Source: Mycobacterium sp. NBC_00419 | Lineage (GTDB): Bacteria; Actinomycetota; Actinomycetes; Mycobacteriales; Mycobacteriaceae | Reading direction: 5' to 3' | Length of the DNA stretch: 64,000 bases | NCBI RefSeq assembly: GCF_036023875.1 | Contig: NZ_CP107931.1 | Coordinates: 2,108,001 to 2,172,000, forward strand | Shown here: one piece after another, positions 55,872 through 64,000 of the stretch | Numbering within the stretch: the stretch's first letter is position 1 | How the letters are laid out: each line of letters opens with the position of its first letter | Translations under genes and position numbers: made by a program | The notes under the pieces: model-generated | What the model was told of the DNA's origin: nothing | What the model saw: the letters and a program-made list of their open reading frames with translations, nothing else | The model's database searches: none

Positions 55872-55909
55872 CCAGTCCGGTGCGATCGCGCCGCACCGTT
55901 CGGTACGCT

Positions 55910-55931
55910 CTGCTGTGCGACTGCTTAGCAT
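55910..55931. promoter_or_regulatory. 22-bp dyad operator candidate, large-subunit copy
   Basis: A 22-bp element whose right half is GCTTAGCAT and left half CTGCTGTGCG lies 35 bp before the large-subunit ATG. It matches 18 of 22 bases of the reverse complement of the dyad at 59654-59675 upstream of the medium/small-subunit genes. Probably the binding site of one shared regulator. Confidence 0.65.
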
Positions 55932-55966
55932 GGGCCGCCCGCCCCCGAGGTATTGGAGTCATCGCC

Positions 55967-58285
55967 ATGGCCGCACCTGTCGCCCGGTACGCGGGTACCC
56001 GGGTCCCGCGGGTCGAGGACAGCCGCCTGCTCACCGGGCACGGCACGTTCGTCGACGACGTCACACGCCCCGGCATGTTGCACGCCTGCTTCGTTCGCAG
56101 CCCGTTCGCTCACGCCCGGATCAACAGCATCGACACCTCGGCCGCCCTGGCCCTGCCCGGCGTCCACGCCGTCTTCACCGCCGGCGACCTCAACCCCGAG
56201 GTGAAAGAGGCCTGGCACGCGGTGGCCGGCAAGGACATTGCCGACACCCCGCGCCCGCCCATGGCCGAGGGGACGGTGAAGTTCGTCGGCGACCCGGTGG
56301 CCCTGGTCGTGGCCGAGAACCGCTACATCGCAGAAGATGCCATCGAGCTCGTCGACGTCGACTACGACCCGCTGCCGGCCATCGCAGATGTCACCCGGGC
56401 GATCGGCTGCGAGGCCGTGGTGCACGACGCCTACCCCGATAACGTCGCCGGCGGCCTGGCCGGGGCACCACCGGACGAGGCCGTCTTCGCCGCGTCGGCC
56501 TTGGTGGTCGCCGAGCACGTCTATCAGCAGACCCACGTACCCGTGCCGATCGAGACCCGCGGCCTGGTGGTCGAATGGGTCGCTGCCGCACAGGAATTGA
56601 CGTTGTGGGCGTCCACCCAGACCCCGCACGAACTGCGCGCGTTCGCAGCCCGGCTGCTCGGCATCCCAGCGCAGCGAGTGCGCGTCATCGCCCGCGACAC
56701 CGGCGGTGGCTTCGGCCAGAAGGTGGTGCCGATGCGTGAGGACATGGCCATCCTGCTGGCTGCCCGCAAGGTGCCCGCCGCACTGAAGTGGATCGAGGAC
56801 CGCCGGGAGAACCTGATGTCGGCGGGGCAGGCCCGCCACGTCGACGGCACCGCCAGGATGGCCTTCGACACCGCCGGGTCCATCACCGCCGTCGACATCG
56901 ACTTCATCCAGGATGTCGGCGCCTACCCCACGCCGTACCCGGTGTTGACCACCGCTGCTATCGGCATGTTCTTCCCTGGCCCCTACCGGGTGCCCAAGGC
57001 CAGCTTCAGCTACAAGACGGTGTTCACCAACACCAGCGGCCTGGCCGCCTATCGCGGACCGTGGCAGTACGAAACCCTCACCCGCGAAATACTTCTCGAC
57101 ATCGCCGCGCGCGCAATGGGTGTTGATCCGGTCGATCTGCGCCGCAAGAATCTGTTGCGCCGTGACGAGATGCCGTACTTCAACCCCAACGGCATGCCGT
57201 ACGACCACGTCGCGCCGATGGAGACCTTCGAGCAGGCCGTAAAAATCCTTGACCACGAAGGATTCCGGAAGGAGCAGGCCGAGGCCCTGGCACAGGGCCG
57301 CTACATCGGGCTGGGCTTCTCGGCCTACATCGAACCGACGGGGGCGGCCACCGGACACCTGGCCACCGAGGGCGCGACGATCCGGATCGAGCCGACCGGC
57401 AAGATCAACGTCTACGTCAACGGGGGCTCGAGCGGCAACAGCATCGAGACCACGGTGGTGCAACTCACCGCCGACGCACTCGGCGCGGACATCGACGACG
57501 TCGCCACGATCCAGGGCGACACCGCCGTCACCCCGTACGGCGCGGGCACCCAGGGCAGCCGCAGCGGACCGATGACCGCCGGTGCCGTCGACGAGGCCGC
57601 AACGATCCTGCGGCAACGACTCGTCGCGATGGCCGCACACATTCTGGGCGTCGACGCCGAGCGCATCGCGCTATCCGGTTCTCGCGCAAGCTCAGTCGAC
57701 GACCCCACCAAGAGCATCACGTTCGCCGATCTGGCGTACCGCGCCCACTACGAACCCCAGCAGTTGCCGCCGGGCATGTCGGCCACCCTGGAGGCGACGA
57801 CCCGCTTCACCTCGCAGACCCCGATCCACTGGGCCAACGCCACCCACGCCTGCACCTGCGAGGTGGACATCACCACCGGACGGGTGACATTGACCCGCTA
57901 CATCGTCAGCGAGGACGTCGGCCCGATGATCAACCCGAACGTCGTCGAGGGTCAGATCGCCGGCGGCACCGTGCAGGGCATCGGCGGGGCACTGCTCGAA
58001 CACCTCGTCTACGACGACGATGGAAATCCCTTGTCCACCACGTTCGTCGACTACCTGCTGCCAACCGCGACCGACGTGCCGCCCATCGAGTACGGCCACG
58101 TGGAGGTACCGGGTCCCGGCGTCGGCGGCTACAAGGGCTGTGGCGAGGGTGGTGCCATCGGCTCGACGCCGGCAGTGATCAACGCGATCAACGACGCCCT
58201 GGCACCGCTGGGGGTGACGATCACCACGCTACCTGCCACACCGGCCCGGATCGTCGCGCTGATCGAGGAAGCTGCCCGGTCCTAG
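55967..58285 (+). CDS. molybdenum hydroxylase large subunit (xanthine dehydrogenase/CoxL-like form II)
   Basis: 772 residues from ATG 55967. Layout: aldehyde-oxidase a/b-hammerhead domain (YAGTRVPRVEDSRLLTGHG) then the Mo-pterin domains: RDTGGGFGQKV, AYRGPWQYET (active-site loop), GSRSGPMTAGAV, and catalytic Glu in KGCGEGGAIGS. True CO dehydrogenases have the AYRCSFR active-site loop with a selenated/sulfurated Cys; this protein has AYRGPWQ, so it hydroxylates some other (aldehyde or N-heterocycle) substrate. It overlaps the end of the convergent small-subunit gene by 4 bp. Confidence 0.92.
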   Translation: MAAPVARYAGTRVPRVEDSRLLTGHGTFVDDVTRPGMLHACFVRSPFAHARINSIDTSAALALPGVHAVFTAGDLNPEVKEAWHAVAGKDIADTPRPPMAEGTVKFVGDPVALVVAENRYIAEDAIELVDVDYDPLPAIADVTRAIGCEAVVHDAYPDNVAGGLAGAPPDEAVFAASALVVAEHVYQQTHVPVPIETRGLVVEWVAAAQELTLWASTQTPHELRAFAARLLGIPAQRVRVIARDTGGGFGQKVVPMREDMAILLAARKVPAALKWIEDRRENLMSAGQARHVDGTARMAFDTAGSITAVDIDFIQDVGAYPTPYPVLTTAAIGMFFPGPYRVPKASFSYKTVFTNTSGLAAYRGPWQYETLTREILLDIAARAMGVDPVDLRRKNLLRRDEMPYFNPNGMPYDHVAPMETFEQAVKILDHEGFRKEQAEALAQGRYIGLGFSAYIEPTGAATGHLATEGATIRIEPTGKINVYVNGGSSGNSIETTVVQLTADALGADIDDVATIQGDTAVTPYGAGTQGSRSGPMTAGAVDEAATILRQRLVAMAAHILGVDAERIALSGSRASSVDDPTKSITFADLAYRAHYEPQQLPPGMSATLEATTRFTSQTPIHWANATHACTCEVDITTGRVTLTRYIVSEDVGPMINPNVVEGQIAGGTVQGIGGALLEHLVYDDDGNPLSTTFVDYLLPTATDVPPIEYGHVEVPGPGVGGYKGCGEGGAIGSTPAVINAINDALAPLGVTITTLPATPARIVALIEEAARS

Positions 58286-58764
58286 GACGTCGATTCTGAC
58301 GAATTCGACGCCAGCCGAACGGCATTGACGATGCCCTGATAGCCCGTGCAACGGCAGAAGTTACCGGAGAGTCCCTCCCGGATCTCCTCGTCGCTGGGGT
58401 GCGAGTTGTCACGCAACAGCGCCGTGATCGACATGACGAACCCCGGCGTGCAGAAGCCGCACTGCAGTCCGTGGCAGTCGCGCAGCGCCGCCTGCACGGC
58501 CGACAGCTCACCGTCGGCCCCGGCGACACCTTCGACGGTCGCGACGTCGGCGCCGTCAGCCTGGACGGCGAACACCAGGCAGGACCGCACCGCGGCGCCG
58601 TCCAGCAGCACCGTGCACGCACCGCACACCCCGTGTTCACAACCGAGGTGGGTACCGGTGAGTCCGCACCGTTCGCGCAGAAAGTCCGCAAGTGTCATCC
58701 GCGGCTCGACGATCGCCTCGGTGGGAGTTCCGTTGACAGACAACCGAACCGGATGTTCATGCAT
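58282..58764 (-). CDS. molybdenum hydroxylase small [2Fe-2S] subunit
   Basis: 160 residues. Plant-type 2Fe-2S domain with GCEHGVCGACTVLLDG and a fourth Cys in RSCLVF, then the alpha-helical domain with LQCGFCTPGFVMS and FCRCTGYQGIV, the second cluster. Electrons pass from the Mo centre through these clusters to FAD on the medium subunit. ATG 58764 overlaps the medium-subunit stop by 8 bp, so the two are coupled. Convergent with the large subunit. Confidence 0.95.
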   Translation of the reverse strand: MHEHPVRLSVNGTPTEAIVEPRMTLADFLRERCGLTGTHLGCEHGVCGACTVLLDGAAVRSCLVFAVQADGADVATVEGVAGADGELSAVQAALRDCHGLQCGFCTPGFVMSITALLRDNSHPSDEEIREGLSGNFCRCTGYQGIVNAVRLASNSSESTS

Positions 58765-59650
58765 CGAGTGCCTCCTTTACTGCAGCCTTCCACGCTTGTG
58801 CCACCATCGCCGCGCCGACCCGTCGCCGGTAGTCCGCCGAGCCCTGGAGGTCGGCGGGCACATCGTCGAGACCGGCCATCGCGAGCTCACCGAGTTCCTC
58901 GGGGCTGACGTCAGCGACCGACCGCCCCGCGACTGCGGCTTCGGCTGCGGCGGCCCGCCGCGGCGTCGCGCTGAGCGCCAGCAGTCCGATCGCGCAGCGC
59001 CGGATCACGTCGTCACCGCCGAGTTCGACTCCCACGACCGCACCGGCGATCGCGAAGTCTCCATGACGGCGTGCGAACTCCTGCACGGCGAAGCCGCACC
59101 GGCCCGACCACACCGGGAACCGCACCCCGACCAGGACTTCGTCGGGCATCATGGTCGTCTCCCACACACCGTTGAAGAATTCGGCGGCCGCGATAGTCCG
59201 GACACCGGACGGCGAGAGGGCCTCCATCTCGGCATCCAGCGCCAGCGCGACGGCGGGATACTCGGCCGCCGGGTCGGCGTGGGCGATCGACCCGCCCAAC
59301 GTTCCCCGGCTGCGGATCTGGAAGTGCCCGATCAACGGTGTGGCGCGGGTGAGCAGCGGGACCGCCGACCGGACCTGCTGGTCGGAGCCGACCACGGCGT
59401 GGGTGGTGCCGCCGCCGATCCAGAGCTGGTCGCCGTCGCGCCGGATGCCCTTCATCTCCTCGAGCCGGGAGATGTCGATCAGGTGGTCGAAGAACGCCAG
59501 CCGCATGGCGAGCATCGGCACCAGACTCTGGCCGCCACCGAGCAGCTTCGCGTCGTCACCGAAGTCGGCGAGCATCTGGGCGGCCTCGGCCGCACTGTCG
59601 GGCCGGTGGTAGTCGAAGGGTGCCGGCTTCACCGGTGCACGCCTTGGCAC
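58757..59650 (-). CDS. molybdenum hydroxylase medium (FAD) subunit
   Basis: 297 residues from GTG 59650; GTG 59632 (VKPAPFDYHRP), the usual N terminus, is likely too and would move the start away from the operator. FAD-binding motifs LLGGGQSLVP and TLGGSIAHADPAAEYP, plus a C-terminal CO-dehydrogenase-flavoprotein-like domain. It hands electrons to an acceptor. First gene of the medium-small pair, transcribed towards the large subunit; the dyad at 59654-59675 is directly upstream. Confidence 0.93.
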   Translation of the reverse strand: MPRRAPVKPAPFDYHRPDSAAEAAQMLADFGDDAKLLGGGQSLVPMLAMRLAFFDHLIDISRLEEMKGIRRDGDQLWIGGGTTHAVVGSDQQVRSAVPLLTRATPLIGHFQIRSRGTLGGSIAHADPAAEYPAVALALDAEMEALSPSGVRTIAAAEFFNGVWETTMMPDEVLVGVRFPVWSGRCGFAVQEFARRHGDFAIAGAVVGVELGGDDVIRRCAIGLLALSATPRRAAAAEAAVAGRSVADVSPEELGELAMAGLDDVPADLQGSADYRRRVGAAMVAQAWKAAVKEALDA

Positions 59651-59653
59651 GTC

Positions 59654-59675
59654 ATGCTAAGCACACGCTCAGCAT
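59654..59675. promoter_or_regulatory. 22-bp dyad operator candidate, medium/small-subunit copy
   Basis: ATGCTAAGC-ACAC-GCTCAGCAT: 9-bp arms with one mismatch. Its reverse complement matches the element at 55910-55931 at 18 of 22 positions. It lies immediately upstream of the medium-subunit gene and downstream of the small secreted gene at 59690-59845. Confidence 0.7.
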
Positions 59676-59689
59676 AGCGGGATGTCCGA

Positions 59690-62921: not shown

Positions 62922-63278
62922 ATGGCTAGTTTGAAGAATTCGGCGCGACGTCTGGCCTTGGCCGGCGGTTTCGCGCTCGCAGTTGCGGCCGCGCCTGCGG
63001 TGGCCGCTTTCACCGTTCCGTCCACCGGGGCTGCCCCGGCTGTCGCCGAATGCGCCCCCGGGGAGGTCGTGAACACCGAGGGCGTCGGCTGCCTGCCCGC
63101 GCCGGTCGAGACCAACCCGGGCGAGACCTCCTTCTCCACTCCGGGCGACCCGGGCAGTGTTCCCGAGGTTCAGGGCATACCTTGCACAGGCGCAAACACC
63201 GGTCAGTGCATAGGATTGCAGGAAGAGCAGCAGGCTCCGCTTGTGGAGCCCCACTCGACCATCTCGTCCAGTCCGTAG
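62922..63278 (+). CDS. small secreted tandem-family protein, first copy
   Basis: 118 residues from ATG 62922; only AGAAAG upstream, a weak RBS. Signal peptide RRLALAGGFALAVAAAPAVAAF, then a short mature part with ECAPGEVVNTEGVGCLP, the family motif PGDPGSVPEVQGIPCTGAN-T-GQCIGLQEEQ and a Ser-rich end (STISSSP). Four Cys could form two disulphides. It resembles mycobacterial proteins carried in annotations as intersectin-EH-binding protein Ibp1 (from memory). First of three tandem paralogues. Confidence 0.78.
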   Translation: MASLKNSARRLALAGGFALAVAAAPAVAAFTVPSTGAAPAVAECAPGEVVNTEGVGCLPAPVETNPGETSFSTPGDPGSVPEVQGIPCTGANTGQCIGLQEEQQAPLVEPHSTISSSP

Positions 63279-63330
63279 TGCGGAGTGCCGGCAGCGGTGC
63301 TCCGTCGTCCTTCTCTAGGAAGTGTGAAGT

Positions 63331-63717
63331 ATGGCGAACTCCCCCTCTGTCGGCCGACGCATCCTCCTCGCGGGAGGGTTGAGCATCGCGATCGCAGCCG
63401 CCCCGGCGGCTGCGTTCGTGGCTCTGCCTTCGCACCCGGCAGGTCCGGCGCTGGCGTGCCCCGCCGGCGAGGTCGAGGACATCTACATCGGTGAGTGCAC
63501 GCCCGAGTTGGTGCCGAACGCACCTGGCGGCAACTACCCCACACCCACTAGCAGTGGCGGCGGCGTCTCCTTCTCGACCCCGGGCGATCCCGGCAGTGTG
63601 CCTGAGGTCCAAGGCATTCCGTGCACCGGCGCCAACAGCGGCCAGTGCATCGGCCTGGAAGAGGATCAGCCTGCCCCGGTCGTCCAGCCTCGCACGAGCA
63701 TTTCGTCCAGCCCGTAA
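63331..63717 (+). CDS. small secreted tandem-family protein, second copy
   Basis: 128 residues from ATG 63331 behind AGGAAGTG. Signal peptide ILLAGGLSIAIAAAPAAAFVAL, mature part ACPAGEVEDIYIGECTPELVPN, then the same motif PGDPGSVPEVQGIPCTGAN-S-GQCIGLEED and SISSSP end. The middle carries a Gly/Ser/Thr linker (PTPTSSGGG). Clearly a duplicate of the preceding gene, 52 bp downstream, with a conserved C-terminal half and a diverged centre. Confidence 0.78.
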   Translation: MANSPSVGRRILLAGGLSIAIAAAPAAAFVALPSHPAGPALACPAGEVEDIYIGECTPELVPNAPGGNYPTPTSSGGGVSFSTPGDPGSVPEVQGIPCTGANSGQCIGLEEDQPAPVVQPRTSISSSP

Positions 63718-63742
63718 GACCGGTCGGACCAGGAGGGCAACG

Positions 63743-64000
63743 ATGCCGATCCATTCCAGTCACACAGTCAAGCTGCTGACCGCGGGCGCGTTCGCGCTCG
63801 CGGTCGCACTGGCGCCTGCCGCCGGGCTTCTCTACGCCGCGCCGCAGGCACTGGCTGAAGGCGAGGGCGGCGTGCCCGACCCGCAGCCGGTGCCGGTTCC
63901 GGCACCCGTGGCCGATCAGCCGGGCAACTCGGCGGGCTGCCAGTCCGGCGAATCCCTGGACGCCTCGACCGGTAACTGCGTGCCGACCATGACGCCGCTG
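63743..64000 (+). CDS. small secreted tandem-family protein, third copy (3'-truncated by window edge)
   Basis: Starts at ATG 63743 behind AGGAGGGCAACG and runs off the window. The first 86 residues show a signal peptide (LLTAGAFALAVALAPAAGLLYAAPQALA), a Pro-rich segment (PDPQPVPVPAPVADQPG) and CQSGESLDASTGNCVP, which is analogous to the Cys-X-Gly-Glu start of the mature parts of the two preceding copies. The shared C-terminal motif, if present, lies beyond base 64000. Confidence 0.7.
   Translation, partial: MPIHSSHTVKLLTAGAFALAVALAPAAGLLYAAPQALAEGEGGVPDPQPVPVPAPVADQPGNSAGCQSGESLDASTGNCVPTMTPL

Follow-up and report, generated by a model that had tools for sequence, protein, structure and literature searches.

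Regulators of the TetR family often stand next to what they regulate. In the portions of a survey of mycobacterial TetR genes that concern their genomic setting, about 60% of the genes surveyed are divergent from a neighbor, a palindrome between the TetR gene and that neighbor is the usual setting of such regulators, and a motif table covers 30 regulators by M. tuberculosis gene number (PMC4482099). Cytochrome P450 genes figure among the targets, as in the Bm3R1/FatR-CYP102 pair of Bacillus, where the FatR operator is placed, in the relevant section of the report, between the start site and the Shine-Dalgarno sequence (PMC3814354). Molybdenum hydroxylases have their own described regulator in CutR of Mycobacterium sp. 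JC1, which, according to the parts of that paper drawn on here, is a LysR-type activator of a three-subunit operon, with cutR divergent to cutB1 and an inverted repeat near the promoter (PMC12609908). The locus considered here touches on both systems. In a stretch of 64,000 nucleotides from Mycobacterium sp. NBC_00419 (contig NZ_CP107931.1, positions 2,108,001 to 2,172,000; hereafter the window), two closely similar 22-bp dyads precede the two convergent transcripts of a split molybdenum hydroxylase. They are very probably operators of a remote TetR-family repressor, shared with a CYP150 P450 gene.

How does this arrangement compare with the known ones? As in the TetR-P450 pairs, a TetR gene adjoins its putative target, the operator is palindromic, and the target is a P450; unlike in those pairs, the operator is also found at a distant molybdenum hydroxylase, ahead of each of its two transcripts. 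As with CutR, the enzyme has three subunits and an inverted repeat lies near the promoter, but the candidate regulator is of the TetR type, the motif is a different one that spans the -10 to start region, and the transcripts converge. The whole looks like a new regulon of a known type, TetR beside P450, and its unusual detail is that two operators seem to hold the halves of a split enzyme together. No paper on a TetR regulator of CYP150 was found in the open-access literature, CYP150 is not mentioned in the inspected parts of the mycobacterial survey (PMC4482099), and the operator sequence was not found in print among the open-access papers whose titles came up as top matches.

The large subunit, a CoxL-like molybdopterin protein of 772 amino acids (PF20256, PF02738, PF01315), is encoded on the plus strand at 55967..58285. 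Facing it on the minus strand are the genes for a CoxM-like flavin adenine dinucleotide-binding medium subunit (58757..59632; PF00941, PF03450) and a CoxS-like 2Fe-2S small subunit (58282..58764; PF01799, PF00111), the latter convergent with the large-subunit gene and overlapping its end by 4 bases. The medium subunit begins with a GTG at 59632, the best start placement, which aligns with an ATG in ten close convergent relatives. Dyad A (55910..55931, plus strand) is the proposed operator of the large subunit, with 35 bases between it and the ATG, while dyad B (59654..59675, minus strand), 21 bases upstream of the GTG, is that of the medium/small transcript. The first-pass annotation of this DNA had reported the two dyads at these positions, in agreement at 18 of 22 bases, and both coordinates and count are reproduced when the reverse complement of 55910-55931 is set against 59654-59675; its assignment of one dyad to the large subunit on the plus strand and the other to the medium and small subunits on the minus strand likewise agrees with the Pfam matches.

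The resemblance of the two dyads exceeds what the window offers elsewhere. Their shared GCTTAGCAT is present in 2 copies against 0.07 expected, although two copies also turn up in 1 of 100 shuffles. The runner-up match to dyad B in the window reaches 15 of 22 bases, and the best chance match in 30 windows generated by a first-order Markov model reaches 14 to 17 of 22. The operator has the form TGCTNAGCA-NN-TGCTNAGCA, in which two short palindromes with a spacing of 11 bp combine into one larger palindrome; by self-complementarity, dyad B matches at 16 of 22 bases and dyad A, more weakly, at 12 of 22. With a scoring matrix trained on TetR-P450 dyads from 22 other genomes, dyad A scores 23.7 bits and dyad B 30.4 bits, and the next best place in the window scores 3.4.

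Where, then, is the regulator encoded? The 5.6-Mb genome contains three exact matches to the pattern TGCTNAGCNNNNGCNNAGCA, namely dyad A, dyad B, and G000:C1:1129161-1129180. The third site lies between a minus-strand gene of the TetR family (G000:C1:1128391-1129080) and a plus-strand P450 gene, a divergent pair. The former encodes a TetR_N helix-turn-helix (PF00440, 50.8 bits against a cut-off of 24), and the latter a close relative of CYP150A6 (PDB 6dcd, E = 1.1e-222). Because the same dyad stands before its gene, this TetR protein is the candidate regulator of the Cox dyads, for which the first-pass annotation knew of none. Its structure model consists of helices only, with a mean predicted local distance difference test score (pLDDT) of 75.7 and a predicted template modeling score of 0.68 (residues 1-15 and 207-237 fall below a pLDDT of 50), and the best fold match, of moderate confidence, is the TetR-type regulator 2gfn (E = 1.1e-5, template modeling scores 0.57/0.68). 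Within the helix-turn-helix the stretch LKPQLVHYYFR is invariant among 22 aligned homologues, which matches the constancy of the operator. A larger regulon in this genome was considered and rejected: when one or two mismatches are allowed, 71 and 75 places are found, no more than the 83 and 84 of a reversed control pattern.

The link between dyad and TetR extends through the genus. Of 148 genomes sampled, 119 have the motif, 118 the TetR protein (E up to 1e-30), and 119 a CYP150 relative (E up to 1e-160). Among the 118 genomes with the TetR protein 116 contain the motif, versus 3 of the 30 that lack the protein (Fisher p = 5e-24, not corrected for descent, from tables compared by eye), while the reversed pattern, counted by eye, occurs in 34 of the 148. 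The TetR loci of 60 of the 118 genomes, made up of the 30 best-scoring and 30 from less similar genomes, all have the dyad upstream of the TetR gene, and CYP150 is divergent alongside in 59. As a member of its family the protein would bind a palindromic operator and be released by a ligand; a palindrome does stand before the gene in 60 of 60 loci. The matrix was trained on 22 of the 30 best-scoring loci, those with a TetR protein more than 75% identical to that of NBC_00419 being excluded, and all 38 remaining loci score above 12 bits (8 of the same clade as NBC_00419 at 23.0-38.6 and 30 others at 12.2-42.7). Since TetR and CYP150 travel together in the genus, their co-occurrence with the dyad hardly separates the two, and other genera help only partly. 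There, 8 of 10 TetR loci fetched from two genera score above 5 bits, and among the 4 of 10 without a CYP150 match in the flank the dyad is kept in two, L259 and L265 (23.0 and 6.6 bits). The TetR protein is present in 81 of 81 genomes with CoxL (E up to 1e-200) and in 37 of 67 without CoxL, a by-eye comparison over the same 148 genomes that genome size may confound. As a separate observation, one genome, G060, has a second copy of the TetR gene product at 59% identity.

What becomes of the dyads when the Cox genes are arranged differently? The best 80 of 200 confirmed CoxL loci, together with that of NBC_00419, were classified by gene order, with genes and strands placed by tblastn. In 47 of the 81 loci the large (L), medium (M), and small (S) subunit genes are co-directional and a gap gene separates L from M (L-G-M-S); another 21 are co-directional L-M-S, and 13 are convergent. 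The gap gene is CoxG where tested (L149, PF06240). The convergent set consists of the locus described here, ten loci from a group that includes M. rhodesiae, M. sphagni, and M. vinylchloridicum, and one locus each from M. palauense (L149) and Mycobacterium sp. ACS4331 (L190). L149 and L190 still have a CoxG-like gene 3' of CoxL. The sole CoxG homologue found in the genome of NBC_00419 (G000:C1:3394212-3394652, locus L213, 52% identity) lies away from the Cox locus, and therefore the CoxG-like gene that belongs to the Cox loci of other lineages is missing from this one.

Both dyads are present in all 13 convergent loci, at 8.9-22.0 bits before L and 11.9-39.9 bits before M in the 12 other than our own. 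A site above 5 bits within 600 bases before CoxL is found in 5 of the 68 co-directional loci, all of them L-G-M-S (Fisher p = 2e-11 for 13/13 versus 5/68, not corrected for descent), and the background is low, with no score above -1.3 in 140 windows of 1100 bases taken from within CoxL. Seven further close relatives (L071-L077) have the same two sites and were left out of the count, as they may duplicate named species. Weaker dyads also occur 1.25-1.34 kb upstream of CoxL in 8 of the 44 L-G-M-S loci with at least 2.1 kb of upstream sequence (47 less three), at 0.7 to 12.1 bits and above 5 bits in 3. These eight are L144, L157, L161, L168, L180, L185, L187, and L206, and in L168 the dyad stands before a CoxI/XdhC-type gene. 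The first-pass annotation had proposed that one regulator coordinates the two convergent transcripts and that conservation of both sites be looked for in relatives. The presence of both in 13 of 13 convergent loci, 11 of which form one clade, bears out the second point, and the comparative sequence evidence as a whole supports the first.

The position of the dyads at the promoters suggests how such a regulator might act. A predicted -10 box of the large-subunit promoter, TACGCT (55904..55909, plus strand), directly abuts dyad A, and that of the medium/small promoter, TATGCT (59671..59676, minus strand), overlaps dyad B. These features are kept, by eye, in relatives. Before dyad A, nine of the ten close convergent relatives have GGTACGCTC and the tenth, L141, has GGTAGGCTC; the TANNNT box of the large subunit, just before or touching dyad A, is TACGCT in the convergent loci apart from TAGGCT in L141 and L190 and TAGCCT in L149. 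At dyad B the box reads TATGCT throughout the 10 close relatives, with TAAGCT instead in L149 and TAAACT in L190. Predicted transcription starts of the convergent Cox promoters fall inside the dyads or at their edges. At the P450 promoters, all 30 contexts of the best-scoring set have by eye TTGACC 17-18 bases before a TAAGC within the dyad (the spacing was counted in two), whereas among the 30 less similar TetR loci at least L303, L305, and L306 do not have TTGACC. Since the dyad abuts or overlaps the TANNNT box in both Cox promoters, repression is likely, and since both promoter layouts, that of the Cox genes and that of the P450 and aldehyde dehydrogenase genes, put the operator on the core promoter, they fit repression by blocking of the polymerase.

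Might the same TetR protein instead activate the Cox promoters, or act dually there? Activators usually bind upstream of the -35 region, and alignment of the convergent Cox promoters shows the dyad adjoining or overlapping the -10 box and the predicted start, where a bound protein would block polymerase. This makes activation improbable in our judgment, even though the Cox promoters appear by eye to be without the -35 TTGACC box found in the P450 and aldehyde dehydrogenase promoters and the family does include activators, FasR being named as one by NCBIfam.

The identity of the enzyme matters for the choice of regulator as well. True (form I) aerobic carbon monoxide (CO) dehydrogenase has the active-site motif AYxCSFR in CoxL. 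The large subunit in the window has AYRGPWQ instead, from residue 361, and assignment to form I was rejected on that account; the large-subunit models of CO dehydrogenase are missed too (TIGR02416, 491.1 bits against a cut-off of 991.15; NF040766, 524.5 against 950). The protein in fact reaches the cut-off of no NCBIfam model; its best match, glyceraldehyde dehydrogenase alpha, scores 553.9 bits where 790 are required. Its nearest solved sequence is the large subunit of quinoline 2-oxidoreductase (PDB 1t3q), and CoxL of CO dehydrogenase (8uem, 1n5w) is likewise among its nearest solved relatives by sequence; AYRGPWQ sets it apart from these solved relatives.

Several observations weigh against control of the Cox genes by the remote TetR protein. 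(i) Some 1.03 Mb separate the TetR gene from the Cox locus. (ii) Dyad A is the weaker and less symmetric of the pair, and the matrix that scores it is not fully independent, the training dyad of each locus having been its best match to a pattern read from the Cox dyads. (iii) Three of the 30 genomes without the TetR protein have the motif (G063, G089, and G126), and two with the protein, G010 and G056, have no exact motif but variants with 1 and 3 mismatches at their TetR genes. (iv) Beyond the genus the operator is less well kept: two of the 10 TetR loci there are at or below 5 bits, namely L263 and L264 (1.8 and -18.1 bits), which have neither the dyad nor a CYP150 match in the flank. (v) Descent limits the Cox comparison. 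As mentioned, most of the convergent loci belong to one clade, and an independent-origin comparison of convergent order with dyads yields 2 supported pairs only (p = 0.5). Moreover, 63 of the 68 co-directional loci lack the dyad near CoxL although genomes of the genus with CoxL have the TetR protein, and the putative TetR control of the molybdenum enzyme is therefore lineage-specific rather than general. (vi) Among 16 loci of TetR paralogues, the best-scoring at 45-51% identity and taken as a negative control, one, L267, scores 20.4 bits, so that a related TetR protein could share the site.

The first and last of these points lend themselves to another reading, in which a different regulator uses the dyads, such as a paralogous TetR protein or CutR. 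We consider this very unlikely. Fifteen of the 16 paralogue loci are without the dyad, which argues against a paralogue, and the enzyme argues against CutR, its large subunit having AYRGPWQ and not AYxCSFR. CutR does regulate CO dehydrogenase in Mycobacterium sp. JC1, but the sites given in the pertinent part of that report, TTAAG-n6-CTTAA with the inverted repeat IR1 at -60, are unlike the dyad (PMC12609908), and this inverted repeat is absent from both dyads, which were the only part of the promoters read for it. That the dyads act instead in RNA, as leader hairpins serving as attenuators or mRNA stabilizers, is hardly credible despite the partial self-pairing of each and their position just before coding regions, for 55300-60100 matches no Rfam family at E up to 0.1, predicted starts inside or next to the dyads would leave a leader without part of the stem, and the same dyad lies upstream of the gene for a DNA-binding protein in each of the 60 TetR loci mentioned above. 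The paralogue loci offer one further observation: five of them (L271 and L273-L276) share a different exact palindrome, TGTTGGGCGATCGCCCAACA, which stands immediately upstream and may be the operator of another TetR regulon.

How would the remote TetR repressor operate? From the sites, their gene order and conservation, the co-occurrence with the TetR gene, and the overlap with -10-like boxes, we infer binding, repression, release by a ligand, and co-expression. In its ligand-free form the protein would cover the -10 box and the start region at the large-subunit, medium/small, and P450 promoters and keep them off, and it would probably repress its own promoter as well. Release would come through a small molecule, a substrate or product of the pathway, and both enzyme halves and the P450 could thus switch on together. 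In most relatives the subunit genes form a one-way cluster; here the medium/small block is convergent with the large subunit, and a separate operator copy in front of the resulting second transcript would keep both halves under one control. Three changes are needed to explain the convergent order on the CoxL tree, two of them forced by well-supported branches. With at least two changes forced, inversion with gain of an operator may have occurred more than once.

The dyad also stands before other oxidative genes. An aldehyde dehydrogenase (PF00171) is found at E up to 1e-180 in 51 of the 148 genomes, that of NBC_00419 having none at this threshold, and the dyad is present at all 30 of its loci fetched from other genomes (L222-L251; 17.5-40.3 bits), which are the 30 best-scoring and were found with a query itself chosen through its dyad. 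All 30 share, by eye, the TTGACC-TAAGC layout of the P450 promoters. In single loci the dyad stands beside luciferase-like monooxygenases, a short-chain dehydrogenase, and another P450, all of them oxidoreductases. As for the chemistry, CYP150A5 of M. marinum is reported, in the part of the study concerned, to convert beta-ionone to 4-hydroxy-beta-ionone (PMC6237146). One may speculate that the regulon is an oxidative pathway of environmental mycobacteria, so far unrecognized, in which CYP150 makes an alcohol, an aldehyde dehydrogenase or the molybdenum hydroxylase oxidizes at a later step, one TetR protein senses, and inversion of the medium/small block was tolerated through the gain of its own operator. 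We offer this scheme tentatively and would not give it even chances.

One of the places found in the NBC_00419 genome when mismatches are allowed is a weaker dyad (locus L008, 4979-4998; G000:C1:2442978-2442997) at which a gene similar to 2,4-diaminopentanoate dehydrogenase (P0003) begins. It is kept in all 8 genomes of the clade, NBC_00419 included, at 11.5-20.0 bits, over a TATGCT box and a conserved GTG, in a spacing that suggests a leaderless start. Since the dyad overlaps both the coding start and the box, its conservation may have other causes, and P0003 is a possible fourth target that we do not claim.

What does the proposed regulon offer? For a molybdenum hydroxylase and a P450 it supplies a candidate regulator together with an operator and a brief list of targets, and the shared control points to these enzymes as worth testing on the same compounds. 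It also illustrates clearly how a gene cluster for one enzyme can be split and yet, it seems, retain common control through a second operator. Apart from these genes, the window contains at 62922-64000 a tandem set of genes whose small products look secreted; two of these products share a PGDPGSVPEVQGIPCTGAN stretch and have no Pfam match, and a third, with a similar start, is cut by the window end.

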